Source: Pseudomonadota bacterium (lineage in GTDB: Bacteria > Pseudomonadota > Gammaproteobacteria > Xanthomonadales > Ahniellaceae). Taken from it: DNA of 64,000 nucleotides. The stretch spans positions 124,001-188,000 of the forward strand of contig JALHNO010000007.1 of the NCBI GenBank assembly GCA_022843465.1. Reading direction: 5' to 3'. The position numbers were made by a program, and so were the translations under genes. Shown piece by piece: positions 25,997 through 31,895 of the stretch (positions within the stretch are counted from its first letter, which is position 1; each line of letters begins with the position of its first letter). The notes under the pieces are model-generated. The model was not told the origin of the DNA and did no database searches. It worked only from the letters and a program-made list of their open reading frames with translations.

Positions 25997-28900
25997 ATGC
26001 AGCAGCGTAGCGACCGGGTCAAATCGCTGGCGTCGATGTCGCGGTTTCGCGTCGGCGCCGTACTGGTACATCCGGACCAGTTGATGATCGTGCACGAGGG
26101 CGCCGAGATTTCGCTCGAGCCGCGCATGATGGAAGTGCTGGTGGCCCTGGCCGAGCATGCCGGCGAGGTGATCAGCGCCGAGCAGTTGCTGATCGAAGTC
26201 TGGCGCGGCAGCTTCTACGGTGACAATCCGGTGCACAAGGCGATCGCCCATCTGCGCCGCCTGGTCGGCGACGACAGTCGGGCGCCGCGCTTCATCGAAA
26301 CCATCCGCAAGCGCGGCTACCGGCTGATCGCACCGGTCAGCTTTCCGGACGACTATCGGCGCGCCGCGGTGTCGACTTCGGCATGGTCCGAGCGCAGCCC
26401 CTACGTCGGACTCGCGGCCTTCGATGGCGCGCATGCCGGCGTCTTTTTCGGGCGCAGCCGCATGACGGCCGAGTTGTTGTCGGCGATGCGCAGACAGATC
26501 GACAATCAGTGCCGCTTCGTGCTGGTCACCGGTGCCAGTGGCTGCGGCAAGACCTCCCTGCTGCATGCCGGTGCCATTCCGCTGCTGGAGCAGGAAGGCG
26601 GATTCGACGGCACCCGAGCCCTGGCCGTGGCCTGCTGCGATCTGGCTGGTGTGCAAGGGGGCGATCTGATCGCCACCCTGGCGACCGCCCTGGCGCGCTG
26701 GACGCATGGCGAACGACCGCTGTTGGCAACGCAGCCAGCGGCGGACCTGGCGCAGGCGCTGATCGAGCGGCCACAGATGATGGCCGAGTCCATCGACGAG
26801 GCGATCGTCCGCCATCCGATCCGCGGCATTGCCGAGCAGCCGCGCGCCCACTTCCTGCTGGTGATCGATCACGCCGAGGCAGTGGTCGCCGAGCCCAGCA
26901 TCCAGGCCGCAGAACGGGCGCAGTTCGAACGTCTGCTCAATGCGCTGTGCGAGAGCGCCCGGGTTCTGGTGGTGATGGTCACCCGCAGTGACTTCTATCC
27001 GAAACTGATCGATGCCATGCCCGACCTGGCCGATCGCAAGGGCGGCGATGGCCATGTCGATGTACTGACGCCGCGCCCCGGTGAAATCGCCCAGATCATT
27101 CGCGGCCCGGCGCTGCTCGCCGGCTTGAGCTTTGAAGAGGATGCGCAGACGCTGTCACGACTGGACGACGTATTGCGCGATGCCGCCTGCAAGCATCTCG
27201 ATGCCCTGCCCCTGCTCCAGCACACCCTGCAATCGCTGTACGAGCGGCGTGACGAGCACGGCGAACTGAGCTTCAAGGCCTACCGCGAAATCGGCGGCCT
27301 GGAAGGCGCGCTCACCCATCGCGCCGAAAGCGTATTTGCCTCGCTATCGAGTGACGCCCAGCACAGCTTGGAGTCGATCCTGTCGCGGCTCATCGTCATC
27401 CAGGCCGACACTGACAGCGTGAGTGCGCGTCGGGTGCCGTGGTCCGCGCTGCCGGATGCGGCGGCGCGCGCCCTTGTCGAGGCCTTCATCCGCGCCCGCC
27501 TGTTCATTGGTGAATTGAGTGAAGGCCACCCTGCCTTCGGCGTGGTTCACGAGTCCCTGTTGCGGCAGTGGCCCCGCGTCCGCGACTGGGCGCAGGACAA
27601 TCGCCGCCTGCTGCAGGCACGCGCGCGCCTGCAGCGTGCTGCCCGGCGTTGGGTTGAAGAAGGCCGACGCAATGATCACCTGCTCAATCCAGGACGACCG
27701 CTGAGCGAGGGACTTGAGGCAGCGCAACGACTGCCCACTGATCTGAGCCGCGATGAGCGCGAGCTGCTGCGTGCATCCGAACGCCAGCACCAGCGGCGGC
27801 GCTGGCTGCGGATCGCGGCAACCGCCGCGCTGGCCGTGCTGGCGATCGTCTCCAGCGCGCTCTCCGTGCTCGCCCAGCGCGCCCGCGACGAAGCCGAGCG
27901 GCGGCGCGAAGAAGCCCTCCGACTCAATGAATTCATGCTCGGCGACCTCGCCGACAAACTGCGGCCACTGGGCAATCTGACCCTGCTCAACAGCATCAGC
28001 GGCGCCGCGCTGGCGTCGCTGGATCGACAGCCCGGCGGGCAACTGCAGACGGCCGACCTGATCAATCGTTCGCGTGCGCTGCGCACACTCGGCGAAGTAC
28101 TGATGGAGCAGGCGAAATTCGAGGACGCGCTGACCGCCTTCAGCGGCGCCGACCGCGCCGCGCGGGCCGCGGTAGAGCGCGCGCCGCAATCCGAGAACGC
28201 GCTGGCCGAATCCGGCGTTGCGGCCTATTGGCTGGGCAACTACCACTATCGACGCAATGCCTTCGCCGAGGCCGAGAAGCACATGTCGGCCTACCTCGAC
28301 AGCAGCCAGCGACTGGTCCGGCTCAACCCGCAGAACCCGACCTGGCTGGTCGAGGAATCCTATGCCTACGACAATCTGGGAGCAGTGGCGCGCGATCTCG
28401 GCCAGATCGATGAGTCGATCGCCCATTTCCGGCGATCGGCAGCACTCAAGCAGCGCGTGGTCGAGATCCGGCCCGACGATGAAAACCTGCGCTTCGACCT
28501 GATCGACACCCTGTCAAGCATCAGCCGCGGCGACGAGTCGACCGGGCGACTGCAGGAAGCTGCGCTCGGCTACGCGGAACAGATCGCCATGCTGCGCGCC
28601 TTGCTCGACGCCCATCCCGGCGCGCGTCGCTGGGAGCGGCGGCTGGCGACCTCACTGATCCGCACTGCCGCGCTCGCCATGATGCGCGGTCGGCTCGAAG
28701 AAGCAGCCGCGTTGATCGACGAAAGTGTCGAGCGCCTTTCGCGACTGACCGCACAGGAACCGGATAACCGGTTCTGGGTGCGCGATCTTGCCGATGCCCA
28801 CATGAAGGCTGCCGAGATTGCACGCCTGCGCGGGCAGCAGGAGCGCGCCGGCGCGCACGTCGGACTTGCCGCCGAGCTGGCCGGAAAAATGAGCGATGAA

Positions 28901-29368
28901 GTCGAGCCGCCACTGCCCTGGCGACGGCTCGACGCCATCATCCGGATCCAGTCCGCGCAACGTGCGCCTGCTGCCGCTGCAAGTGCGCAGGAGATCGTCA
29001 AGGCGCTGGCGGAGCTTGAATACGTCGCCGCCCATGCCGGCGGCGACGTGGTGGAGATATCGGCGATCGCGAACTTTCTGATTGCCCGCAGCCTGCAGTT
29101 GATGGACGCCGGGAACTCCGAAGATGCCCAAGCCGATTGCCAACGGGTGATCGAACTGCTGCGGGATATCGCGCCGACGTCGCACGAGCCCAATGTACTG
29201 GCGGCCTGGGTGGCGGCGCACGCCCTGCTCGGCGCAAGGGAGCGGATTGCGCCGCAACTCGACTGGCTGCAGCGGATCGGTTATCGCCATCCGGATTTCA
29301 TCAGAGCCACCGATGGCAGCATTGGCGCCGCCGTGCTGGCATTGGACACCGCAGCGAGACCGAATTGA
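25997..29368 (+). CDS. winged-helix / STAND NTPase / TPR regulator
   Basis: 1,123 residues from ATG 25997 (AGGA 5 nt upstream). Domains in order: an OmpR/CadC-type winged helix (~28-115, ending RFIETIRKRGYRLIAPV); a signal-transduction ATPase module of the nSTAND1 type beginning SPYVGLAAF (~135), with Walker A GASGCGKTS (179-187) and Walker B FLLVIDHAE (286-294); a helical region; one transmembrane segment (~602-628, AATAALAVLAIVSSALSVLA); then a long TPR-like helical repeat region to the end. It probably sits in the inner membrane with the DNA-binding and NTPase parts in the cytoplasm and the TPR region across the membrane, like CadC-type one-component regulators. Ligand and target genes unknown; the next genes downstream are candidates. 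Confidence 0.88.
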   Translation: MQQRSDRVKSLASMSRFRVGAVLVHPDQLMIVHEGAEISLEPRMMEVLVALAEHAGEVISAEQLLIEVWRGSFYGDNPVHKAIAHLRRLVGDDSRAPRFIETIRKRGYRLIAPVSFPDDYRRAAVSTSAWSERSPYVGLAAFDGAHAGVFFGRSRMTAELLSAMRRQIDNQCRFVLVTGASGCGKTSLLHAGAIPLLEQEGGFDGTRALAVACCDLAGVQGGDLIATLATALARWTHGERPLLATQPAADLAQALIERPQMMAESIDEAIVRHPIRGIAEQPRAHFLLVIDHAEAVVAEPSIQAAERAQFERLLNALCESARVLVVMVTRSDFYPKLIDAMPDLADRKGGDGHVDVLTPRPGEIAQIIRGPALLAGLSFEEDAQTLSRLDDVLRDAACKHLDALPLLQHTLQSLYERRDEHGELSFKAYREIGGLEGALTHRAESVFASLSSDAQHSLESILSRLIVIQADTDSVSARRVPWSALPDAAARALVEAFIRARLFIGELSEGHPAFGVVHESLLRQWPRVRDWAQDNRRLLQARARLQRAARRWVEEGRRNDHLLNPGRPLSEGLEAAQRLPTDLSRDERELLRASERQHQRRRWLRIAATAALAVLAIVSSALSVLAQRARDEAERRREEALRLNEFMLGDLADKLRPLGNLTLLNSISGAALASLDRQPGGQLQTADLINRSRALRTLGEVLMEQAKFEDALTAFSGADRAARAAVERAPQSENALAESGVAAYWLGNYHYRRNAFAEAEKHMSAYLDSSQRLVRLNPQNPTWLVEESYAYDNLGAVARDLGQIDESIAHFRRSAALKQRVVEIRPDDENLRFDLIDTLSSISRGDESTGRLQEAALGYAEQIAMLRALLDAHPGARRWERRLATSLIRTAALAMMRGRLEEAAALIDESVERLSRLTAQEPDNRFWVRDLADAHMKAAEIARLRGQQERAGAHVGLAAELAGKMSDEVEPPLPWRRLDAIIRIQSAQRAPAAAASAQEIVKALAELEYVAAHAGGDVVEISAIANFLIARSLQLMDAGNSEDAQADCQRVIELLRDIAPTSHEPNVLAAWVAAHALLGARERIAPQLDWLQRIGYRHPDFIRATDGSIGAAVLALDTAARPN

Positions 29369-29531: not shown

Positions 29532-29939
29532 ATGGTCGCAATCGTAGCTCCAACACCCAGCAAGTCCGGCGGCACCGAAGTCCTGGTCGTCAACCTGACG
29601 GTCAGCGGCAGTTCGGGAAACTATTCCTACTCCTACGACGTCCCCCACATCATCAGCCAGGAAACAACAGGCGAAGTGCAGGTCAATCTGATTTCAACGA
29701 GTCTGCCTTCCGGCTACAGCGCCTACATCCGGGAATATGCCTGCACCGATGTCAATGCGCTGGTGCCCAAATCGCCGGCTTCAGCGCCCTTCGCCGTCGG
29801 GACCCAGTCGGCGATCTTCTCGCTGACGCTGGCGACCAACCAGCTGATCAGCTTTGCGATTTTTGTGGAAATCACCGATACATCGCGCAACACCACGACG
29901 GTGTTCTGCGACCCGCAGATCGGCAACGATCCGAAGTAG
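29532..29939 (+). CDS. uncharacterised 135-residue protein
   Basis: Start ATG 29532, preceded by GAGGAAG. Beta-rich, with serine/threonine-rich stretches (VNLTVSGSSGNYSYSYDV), two cysteines (near residues 71 and 126) and no signal peptide or membrane segment. I do not recognise the family. It lies 163 bp after the STAND regulator on the same strand, so it may be a target or partner; this is positional only. Confidence 0.65.
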   Translation: MVAIVAPTPSKSGGTEVLVVNLTVSGSSGNYSYSYDVPHIISQETTGEVQVNLISTSLPSGYSAYIREYACTDVNALVPKSPASAPFAVGTQSAIFSLTLATNQLISFAIFVEITDTSRNTTTVFCDPQIGNDPK

Positions 29940-30369
29940 TCGAGCGCCCGGAAGAGTCATCGGCGGCCTGCGCATCGAGGTTTGCCGGTGACTCGATCGC
30001 CCGTGCCCTCTGCCGAACACAAGCTGCAGCCCTCGCGCGCACTGCAGTTGCGATGGCAGGGCTGCCACGTTGCCTGGGCAGGTCCAGCTCTGCGATCCTT
30101 GGTACCGGCGATTCCGGCCGCGCTCGCGCGCCGGTGCATGATCCGCAATGAAGTTGCAGCCGAGCGACAAGGATCAGCGTCGTCTGATACCAGAATGCGT
30201 CCGAATCGAACCCGCCGTGCCCATTCGATACGGAGATGATTGAGCTGTGGAGCACCCCCACTCAGTAGCTCCACTCAAGGGTGCGGCACAGGAACGACGA
30301 ACTCCGTTCAGGGGGCCTGTGCCGCACCTGCCCTCCATCCGAACTGCCACAATGAATCCAGGGTGCGTG
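29940..30369. other. 430-bp region before the first stefin-like gene
   Basis: No gene seen. Its last 90 bp contain a long perfect inverted repeat, listed separately. The remaining 340 bp show nothing I can name. Confidence 0.5.
30281..30329. repeat. 13-bp perfect inverted repeat with inner hairpin, 40 bp before stefin-like gene 1
   Basis: GGTGCGGCACAGG (30281-30293) pairs perfectly with CCTGTGCCGCACC (30317-30329); the 23-nt loop holds a smaller GAAC/GTTC stem. It ends 40 bp before the start codon at 30370. With no T tract it is not a classical terminator; an operator, an RNA leader or a REP-like element are all possible. Confidence 0.7.
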
Positions 30370-30666
30370 ATGTGTGAGCAGGAATCCGCAGCGGGCTTCG
30401 AGGTCTGGCATACCCCGTCGGAGCAGGAGCAACGGGTATTCGCCAGGGTGACCGAGCGTTTCCAGAGCGTTCGCTACCGACCCTGCAGTTGCGCCACCGA
30501 GGTCGCCGCCGGCACCCGCTACTCGTTCCTGTGTGCGGCCGAGTATGCCGCCGAAACCGCCGGCTGCAGCCTGGTCAAACTGCGCGTGTTCGAGCCCTTG
30601 CATGGCCCCAACGCACCGATTGAAATCGCGCCGATCCTGCTCTCGATCGAGACCATCGAGCCCTGA
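30370..30666 (+). CDS. stefin-like (cystatin-fold) small protein, copy 1
   Basis: 98 residues from ATG 30370 (CAGGG upstream; the ATG 18 nt earlier has no ribosome-binding site). It aligns without gaps to the next gene, with 32 of 98 identical positions by my count. The pattern EVAAG (44-48) followed by TRYSFLC, and VKLRVFEPL (69-77), parallels the stefin QVVAG-TNY...LKVF-SL core. Here the first inhibitory loop is altered (E-V-A-A-G, not Q-x-V-x-G), and there are five additional cysteines (2, 39, 41, 55, 66). No signal peptide, so cytoplasmic. The fold assignment is pattern-based; loss of the canonical loop could mean a changed or lost inhibitor role. Confidence 0.7.
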   Translation: MCEQESAAGFEVWHTPSEQEQRVFARVTERFQSVRYRPCSCATEVAAGTRYSFLCAAEYAAETAGCSLVKLRVFEPLHGPNAPIEIAPILLSIETIEP

Positions 30667-30868
30667 TTCAGTTCCCTTGTTGCCGGGTTCGGCGGCCGCA
30701 GTGATGCCGTCTTGCCACCGCTCTGTACCCACGCCGGGGCGACCGTTGGCCGACAATGCAGGCGTATGGTCGCGCCAGGCTCTGGCGCCGCCAACCGCGA
30801 TGGTCACTGGATCTGATTCGCGAAGTCGCGATTGCCGCAGACCCGAGCAAGCGCACCAGGAGTCAATG

Positions 30869-31165
30869 ATGTCCCCACGAACCGCTGGCAACTGGTCAAG
30901 TTTCGAGTTCACGCTGACGCCCGAGGCCAAGCACGTCTTCGCCGAGGCGACCTCGGGCCTGCTGGGCGTCAAGTACACCGCATTCGCCTTTGCCACCCAG
31001 ACCGTCGCCGGCACCGGCTACTCGTTCCTGTGCGAGGGGGTTGCCGCCAACCGGTCGCCAGCGACGACCGTGGTCAAGATGCGGATCTACCAGCCGCTGG
31101 CCAATCCGCTGTCCGAGGTCGAGGAACGGCCGATGATCGAATCGATCGAGGCGATTGCGCCCTGA
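30869..31165 (+). CDS. stefin-like (cystatin-fold) cysteine-protease inhibitor candidate, copy 2
   Basis: 98 residues, the size of human stefin A. ATG 30869 has AGGAG 6 nt upstream; an ATG just before it lies too close. Residues 44-48 read QTVAG, fitting the cystatin signature Q-x-V-x-G, followed by TGYSFLC and then VVKMRIYQPL (68-77) where cystatins have YMHLKVFKSL; the preceding helix region (TPEAKHVFAEAT) fits the single cystatin helix. No signal peptide or disulphide pair, as in cytoplasmic stefins. Cystatins block papain-like proteases; that activity here is inference. It lies 202 bp after its paralogue on the same strand. Confidence 0.75.
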   Translation: MSPRTAGNWSSFEFTLTPEAKHVFAEATSGLLGVKYTAFAFATQTVAGTGYSFLCEGVAANRSPATTVVKMRIYQPLANPLSEVEERPMIESIEAIAP

Positions 31166-31508: not shown

Positions 31509-31895
31509 ATGCAAGATGACCTGGCGATCACGGACTCATGGAATTCGGATGACACCGCGTACGAGTTTGCGCCCGAACCGGCGACCGGCGCGCTGCGCCA
31601 CAATGCCGAACCGGGCGTGCAGTCGGCGCTGGCCAGCGACCAGTTGAATGCTGGACGCATCACCCTCAACAGCGATCTGCTGCGCCAGCTGCGTCAGAGT
31701 CGCCTGCTCAGTCAGCAGGATCTCGCCGATGATTGCTGGCGGCGCAATATCCGCATCTCGATCGCCACCATCAAGCGCGCCGAGACCGGCTGCGCGGTGC
31801 GCTTCCGGATCGCTCGCGAGTTGGCGCGCTGCTTCGAGGTTCCGGTGATGCAGCTGGTCTGCGCGGACACGATGGCCAGCCAGCGGGCCGCATGA
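31509..31895 (+). CDS. XRE-family DNA-binding protein
   Basis: 128 residues, GAGGA 7 nt before ATG 31509. Residues ~55-115 form a Cro/C1-type helix-turn-helix (LLRQLRQSRLLSQQDLADDC...SIATIKRAETG...RIARELARCFEVPVMQLV). The first ~50 residues are acidic and look disordered. Probable transcription regulator of the neighbouring small genes or itself; target unknown. Confidence 0.85.
   Translation: MQDDLAITDSWNSDDTAYEFAPEPATGALRHNAEPGVQSALASDQLNAGRITLNSDLLRQLRQSRLLSQQDLADDCWRRNIRISIATIKRAETGCAVRFRIARELARCFEVPVMQLVCADTMASQRAA

Follow-up and report, generated by a model that had tools for sequence, protein, structure and literature searches.

Tandem bacterial stefins, one with a degenerate inhibitory loop, in a regulator-linked gene cassette of Lysobacterales

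A 64,000-nucleotide stretch of a gammaproteobacterial genome (assembly GCA_022843465.1, contig JALHNO010000007.1, positions 124,001 to 188,000 of the forward strand; hereafter, the window) encodes two bacterial stefins in tandem, neither of which has an apparent signal peptide. Animal stefins and cystatins are inhibitors of papain-like proteases, and the motif Q-x-V-x-G forms their first inhibitory hairpin. The second protein of the pair (copy 2) has this motif, whereas the first (copy 1) does not. Judging from conserved residues and predicted structure, it appears reasonably probable that copy 2 acts as a stefin on a foreign papain-like protease, that copy 1 is a loop-decayed duplicate, and that the pair is under the control of a regulator encoded upstream.

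Copy 1 (30370–30666, plus strand) and copy 2 (30869–31165, plus strand) each encode 98 amino acids followed by a stop codon; for copy 2, an ATGATG at 30866 makes a 99-amino acid start equally possible. Both are supported as genes by codon statistics, with third-position GC values of 0.81 and 0.86 (window GC, 64%) and codon scores of 21 and 25 for copies 1 and 2, respectively. An earlier note had assigned the pair to positions 29940–31165. Both genes do lie within this span, but position 29940 merely follows the stop codon of the preceding gene (29532–29939), and the stefin genes begin at 30370. The note's description of two adjacent proteins that align without gaps and are about one-third identical holds, with 32 of 98 amino acids identical end to end (33%) and a tblastn match of about 1e-14. 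Chance similarity between the two reading frames was ruled out, as the alignment score was 146 and 2000 shuffles yielded a mean of -30, a standard deviation of 12, and a maximum of 23. The motifs it had listed are likewise present: copy 2 has QTVAG at residues 44–48 (codons 30998–31012, plus strand), with VVKMRIYQPL further along, and copy 1 has EVAAG at the equivalent position along with several cysteines, which we count as five (C2, C39, C41, C55, and C66) as compared to one in copy 2 (C55). Copy 2 has no apparent leader, its N-terminus reading without a hydrophobic stretch.

The AlphaFold2 model of copy 2 has the cystatin topology (pLDDT 90.9), in which one helix (residues 18–28) packs on four strands (residues 34–46, 48–59, 66–76, and 89–95). 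QTVAG forms the turn of the first hairpin, at residue 47 between the first two strands. Copy 1 is also predicted to adopt the cystatin fold, at lower confidence (pLDDT 75.3; Z 9.2 to stefin B); MAFFT places its C-terminus differently than the gapless alignment does, so the model may be less reliable in that region. The earlier note had staked its interpretation on this fold, and the models bear it out. The solved chains nearest to the copy 2 model by VIA-align are Dictyostelium cystatin A2 (Z 10.2), CsStefin-1 (Z 9.8), and stefin B from its complex with papain (Z 9.3, 83 residues, 2.8 Å). Nearly all top structures identified by Foldseek and VIA-align are stefins, cystatins, or cystatin-derived scaffolds, with Foldseek E-values that are modest (best, 7.6e-3). 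No better match to another family was seen; the latexin, fetuin-B, Affimer, and monellin entries in the fold lists have a cystatin-like fold.

The profile search proposed in the same note gave a divided result. As single sequences, neither copy reaches the thresholds of Pfam or NCBIfam, and phmmer found no match to copy 2 in the PDB. Against the Pfam cystatin profile (PF00031), a sister protein matches from profile position 1 at 0.069 and the best family member at 0.0047, neither reaching the curated cut-off. A profile constructed from 28 family domains, however, does find cystatins and stefins in the PDB (Fasciola cystatin, 5e-4; stefin A, 1.4e-3); the best 15 matches are all cystatins, and the QVVAGTNY and N-terminal GG of stefin A fall in register with the family profile. 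Stefins are about 100 residues long and have neither disulfides nor signal peptides, and copy 2 agrees with this in having 98 amino acids, one cysteine, and no visible signal peptide. Because the PF00031 miss shows how far a single profile can reach and does not define the family biologically, we rely on predicted fold, motif, and profile matches, by which copy 2 is a member of the cystatin superfamily of the stefin type.

When copy 2 alone was used as a query against species genomes, no relative was found. A query of four aligned rows, consisting of copies 1 and 2 and one relative each from genomes G002 and G028, identified 19 loci and reached Collimonas, one Rhodocyclaceae MAG, and many rumen Clostridia. 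Further searches added Persicobacteraceae, Bradyrhizobium, and lipoprotein forms in other Gammaproteobacteria. The gene is rare in Lysobacterales (3 of 398 genomes), with one relative each in G002, which belongs to the same family as the window genome, and G028 (Lysobacterales bacterium Bin_30_3_3), which belongs to the same order. Proteobacterial members near the window copies look leaderless. Those in rumen Clostridia, among them many secreted one- and two-domain forms, have signal peptides or lipoprotein leaders as read from sequence. Many of them combine two domains in one chain, as do the Rhodocyclaceae and Aureibacter members. The stefin-like proteins of rumen Clostridia are perhaps directed at protozoal or feed proteases. 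No stefin was found in annotated phage records; in the IMG/VR viral collection, six contigs code for stefin-like proteins of one or two domains, one of them located terminally in a long, repetitive protein.

As seen in the complex of stefin B with papain, stefins enter the protease cleft with a wedge composed of an N-terminal glycine segment, the QxVxG hairpin, and a second hairpin. In the alignment of the 28 family domains, columns belonging to these three parts are among the most conserved outside the search patterns. The N-terminal glycine (G7), the QxVxG motif, and the second-hairpin glycine (G79) are each present in 27 of 28 domains, as are Q44 and V46 individually; W9 is present in 26 and G48 in 27–28. 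G7, W9, Q44, V46, and G79 lie outside the search patterns, while columns 47–55 are partly favored by the search pattern. Cys55 is constant in the branch of the window and is not kept in more distant forms. Copy 2 has G7; in the profile match, this position lines up with the GG of stefin A. Copy 2 departs from the family at N50 (to G), at the second glycine of GGW (to N, giving AGNW), and at G79 (to N), and so reads PLANP at the second hairpin in place of the glycine common to the others. Copy 1 is the only domain among the 28 that lacks QxVxG. The two copies thus show opposite losses, with copy 1 keeping the second-hairpin glycine and losing Q and V, and copy 2 keeping QxVxG and lacking the second-hairpin glycine.

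The closest relatives of copy 2 are those of G028 (49% identity) and G002 (45%). In the family tree, the branch to copy 1 has 3.1 changes per column as compared to 0.63 for copy 2, with the placement of copy 1 being unsure. The segment following the second hairpin is common to both copies and exceeds that of the G028 and G002 relatives by seven residues, and 10 of the last 23 residues are identical between the copies. The shared longer segment argues for duplication within the lineage of the window. Copy 1 is thus most likely a duplicate that arose in this lineage and then changed rapidly. The original proposal of a cystatin that was duplicated and diverged in one copy is correct. Having lost Q and V from its hairpin, copy 1 probably no longer inhibits papain-like enzymes.

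Upstream of the pair is the gene for a regulator of 1123 amino acids (25997–29368, plus strand; longest reading frame from 25796), which consists of a Trans_reg_C winged helix (PF00486, 8.5e-18), an nSTAND1 NTPase (PF20703, 2.4e-86), and a TPR region (TPR_2, 1.8e-10). Directly behind it is the gene for a DP-EP-like protein of 135 amino acids (29532–29939, plus strand). This protein has no direct match to PF08985 (DP-EP). By profile comparison (E 6e-7), it resembles small proteins that accompany the regulator in other Lysobacterales, and one of those matches PF08985 at 9.5e-4, below the cut-off of that profile. The last gene of the cassette encodes a helix-turn-helix (HTH) protein of 128 amino acids (31509–31895, plus strand; HTH_3, 8.6e-4, below the curated cut-off). 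All three stefin-bearing Lysobacterales genomes have the order regulator, stefin gene, and HTH gene, and the closest relatives of the window regulator are those ahead of the stefin genes of G002 and G028. A DP-EP-like protein lies between regulator and stefin in two of the three, the window and G028, where the related gene is at the equivalent position. This linkage is based on three genomes, and shared descent could explain part of it. The intergenic gaps of about 160–430 bases do not by themselves prove a single transcript, and promoter and terminator scans were at chance level.

The regulator type is distributed more widely (22 of 61 genomes) than the HTH gene, which occurs in 3 of 61 relatives, these being exactly the stefin carriers. 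At four other regulator loci inspected, the gene immediately behind the regulator encodes a small DP-EP-type protein. G019, which has the closest regulator among non-carriers, encodes a small protein with a DPQ motif near its end and has neither the stefin nor the HTH gene. As the unit of regulator and DP-EP protein is wider than the stefin and HTH genes, the latter appear to be a late or easily lost addition. Large Lysobacterales regulators of the Trans_reg_C/nSTAND1/TPR type, or their kinase-headed relatives, are regularly followed by a protein of 120–135 amino acids, constituting a recurring two-gene unit, and these proteins (DP-EP family, PF08985) have a DPQ/DPE-x-x-N-x-P-like end motif. 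G028 has a second copy of the cassette HTH gene (at about G028:C24:59477-59653), located ~8 kb from the cassette near a gene of 970 amino acids and with no adjacent stefin.

The cassette raises the alternative that these proteins use the stefin fold for binding within nSTAND signaling, as an adaptor or ligand of the regulator or the DP-EP-like protein, with no role as inhibitors. Such a role would suit a leaderless gene whose neighbors in three Lysobacterales genomes are an nSTAND regulator and an HTH gene, a genome in which Pfam finds no C1 peptidase, and a copy 1 frame that is intact despite lost inhibitory residues. However, the Collimonas and Rhodocyclaceae members have no adjoining regulator of this type, and the family retains QxVxG and the glycines at the N-terminus and second hairpin, including in secreted Clostridial forms and gammaproteobacterial lipoprotein forms that have other neighbors. 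Since the wedge residues are kept even in these, inhibition fits better, and we regard a binding role in its place as possible but unlikely.

As an inhibitor, copy 2 would use its N-terminal glycine segment, QTVAG hairpin, and second hairpin as a wedge, as in animal stefins, and thereby block the active-site cleft of a papain-like cysteine protease (clan CA, family C1). A search with Pfam PF00112 found no C1 peptidase in the window genome, G002, or two Collimonas genomes (four of the six carriers checked); G028 and the Rhodocyclaceae MAG encode one C1 domain protein each. Given the lack of such a peptidase in the window genome, the target of copy 2 is probably foreign, and with C1 peptidases in only two of six carriers, a papain-like target of the bacterium's own would not be general. 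This is in line with Kordis and Turk, who proposed eukaryotic proteases as the targets of bacterial stefins (PMC2784779). The protease might come, for instance, from a protist, fungus, host, or microbial competitor, and the leaderless copy 2 might meet it through lysis, an unrecognized export route, or its entry into the cell. Copy 1, with its hairpin Q and V lost, may bind something else or be on its way out. Because the pair lies behind an nSTAND regulator and ahead of an HTH gene, a signal sensed by this regulator probably switches expression of the two genes. A more specific reading, in which the regulator responds to a eukaryote or rival by sensing its attack or contact with it, and then induces the inhibitor together with a loop-dead paralogue as sensor or decoy, seems quite unlikely.

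The stefins might otherwise regulate an intracellular peptidase of the bacterium itself. This could be a C1 enzyme whose divergence hides it from PF00112, or a cysteine peptidase from a different family. The missing signal peptides and the C1 domain proteins of G028 and the Rhodocyclaceae carrier are consistent with this, but the four of six carriers without a C1 peptidase by Pfam make it very unlikely. An inhibitor and decoy pair as suggested in the earlier note, in which copy 2 inhibits and copy 1 binds a neutralizer of copy 2 or senses the protease without blocking it, would account for the tandem layout, intact frames, and opposite losses, but is scarcely to be expected, as no other cassette-bearing genome has two stefin genes and relaxed constraint equally explains the long branch of copy 1.

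Bacterial stefins have been known since 2009 as small proteins that have the layout of stefins and the QxVxG motif, that occur rarely and patchily, and for which an origin by horizontal transfer was proposed (Kordis and Turk, PMC2784779). The earlier note mentions neither these nor the surrounding cassette. By description, the window pair shares their small size and layout, and copy 2 their motif; the pair differs in being a tandem with one degenerate loop, located in an nSTAND/DP-EP/HTH cassette. The 17 genera listed in that work do not include Lysobacterales, Collimonas, or Rhodocyclaceae. Animal stefins A and B (1stf, 1dvc) are likewise 98 residues in length, with an N-terminal glycine segment, the hairpin (QVVAGTNY in the animal proteins), a strand ending in a hairpin with L-P-G (P-L-x-G in the bacterial family), and the same fold. 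Identity between these and the bacterial family is about 20%, and the bacterial family has a GGW N-terminus and, in the window branch, the constant Cys55. The two-domain proteins of rumen Clostridia, the Rhodocyclaceae MAG, and Aureibacter contain the same QxVxG domain, often in tandem, but on one chain, and in Clostridia with signal peptides or lipoprotein leaders, whereas the window copies are separate genes. The window regulator resembles the regulator and DP-EP units of other Lysobacterales in having a DP-EP-like protein behind it, and differs in its stefin pair, as the other inspected loci have no stefin gene, except for G028.

Bacterial stefins are prior art, and two-domain stefin-like forms are common. 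Judged by the open-access literature, what is new to the record is the cassette and the twin with a dead loop. We found no experiment on any bacterial stefin in that literature. The link to a regulator in three genomes, together with a host that has no papain-like peptidase, provides a concrete start for asking what bacterial stefins do, and copy 1, as a natural loop mutant adjoining copy 2, offers a built-in control.
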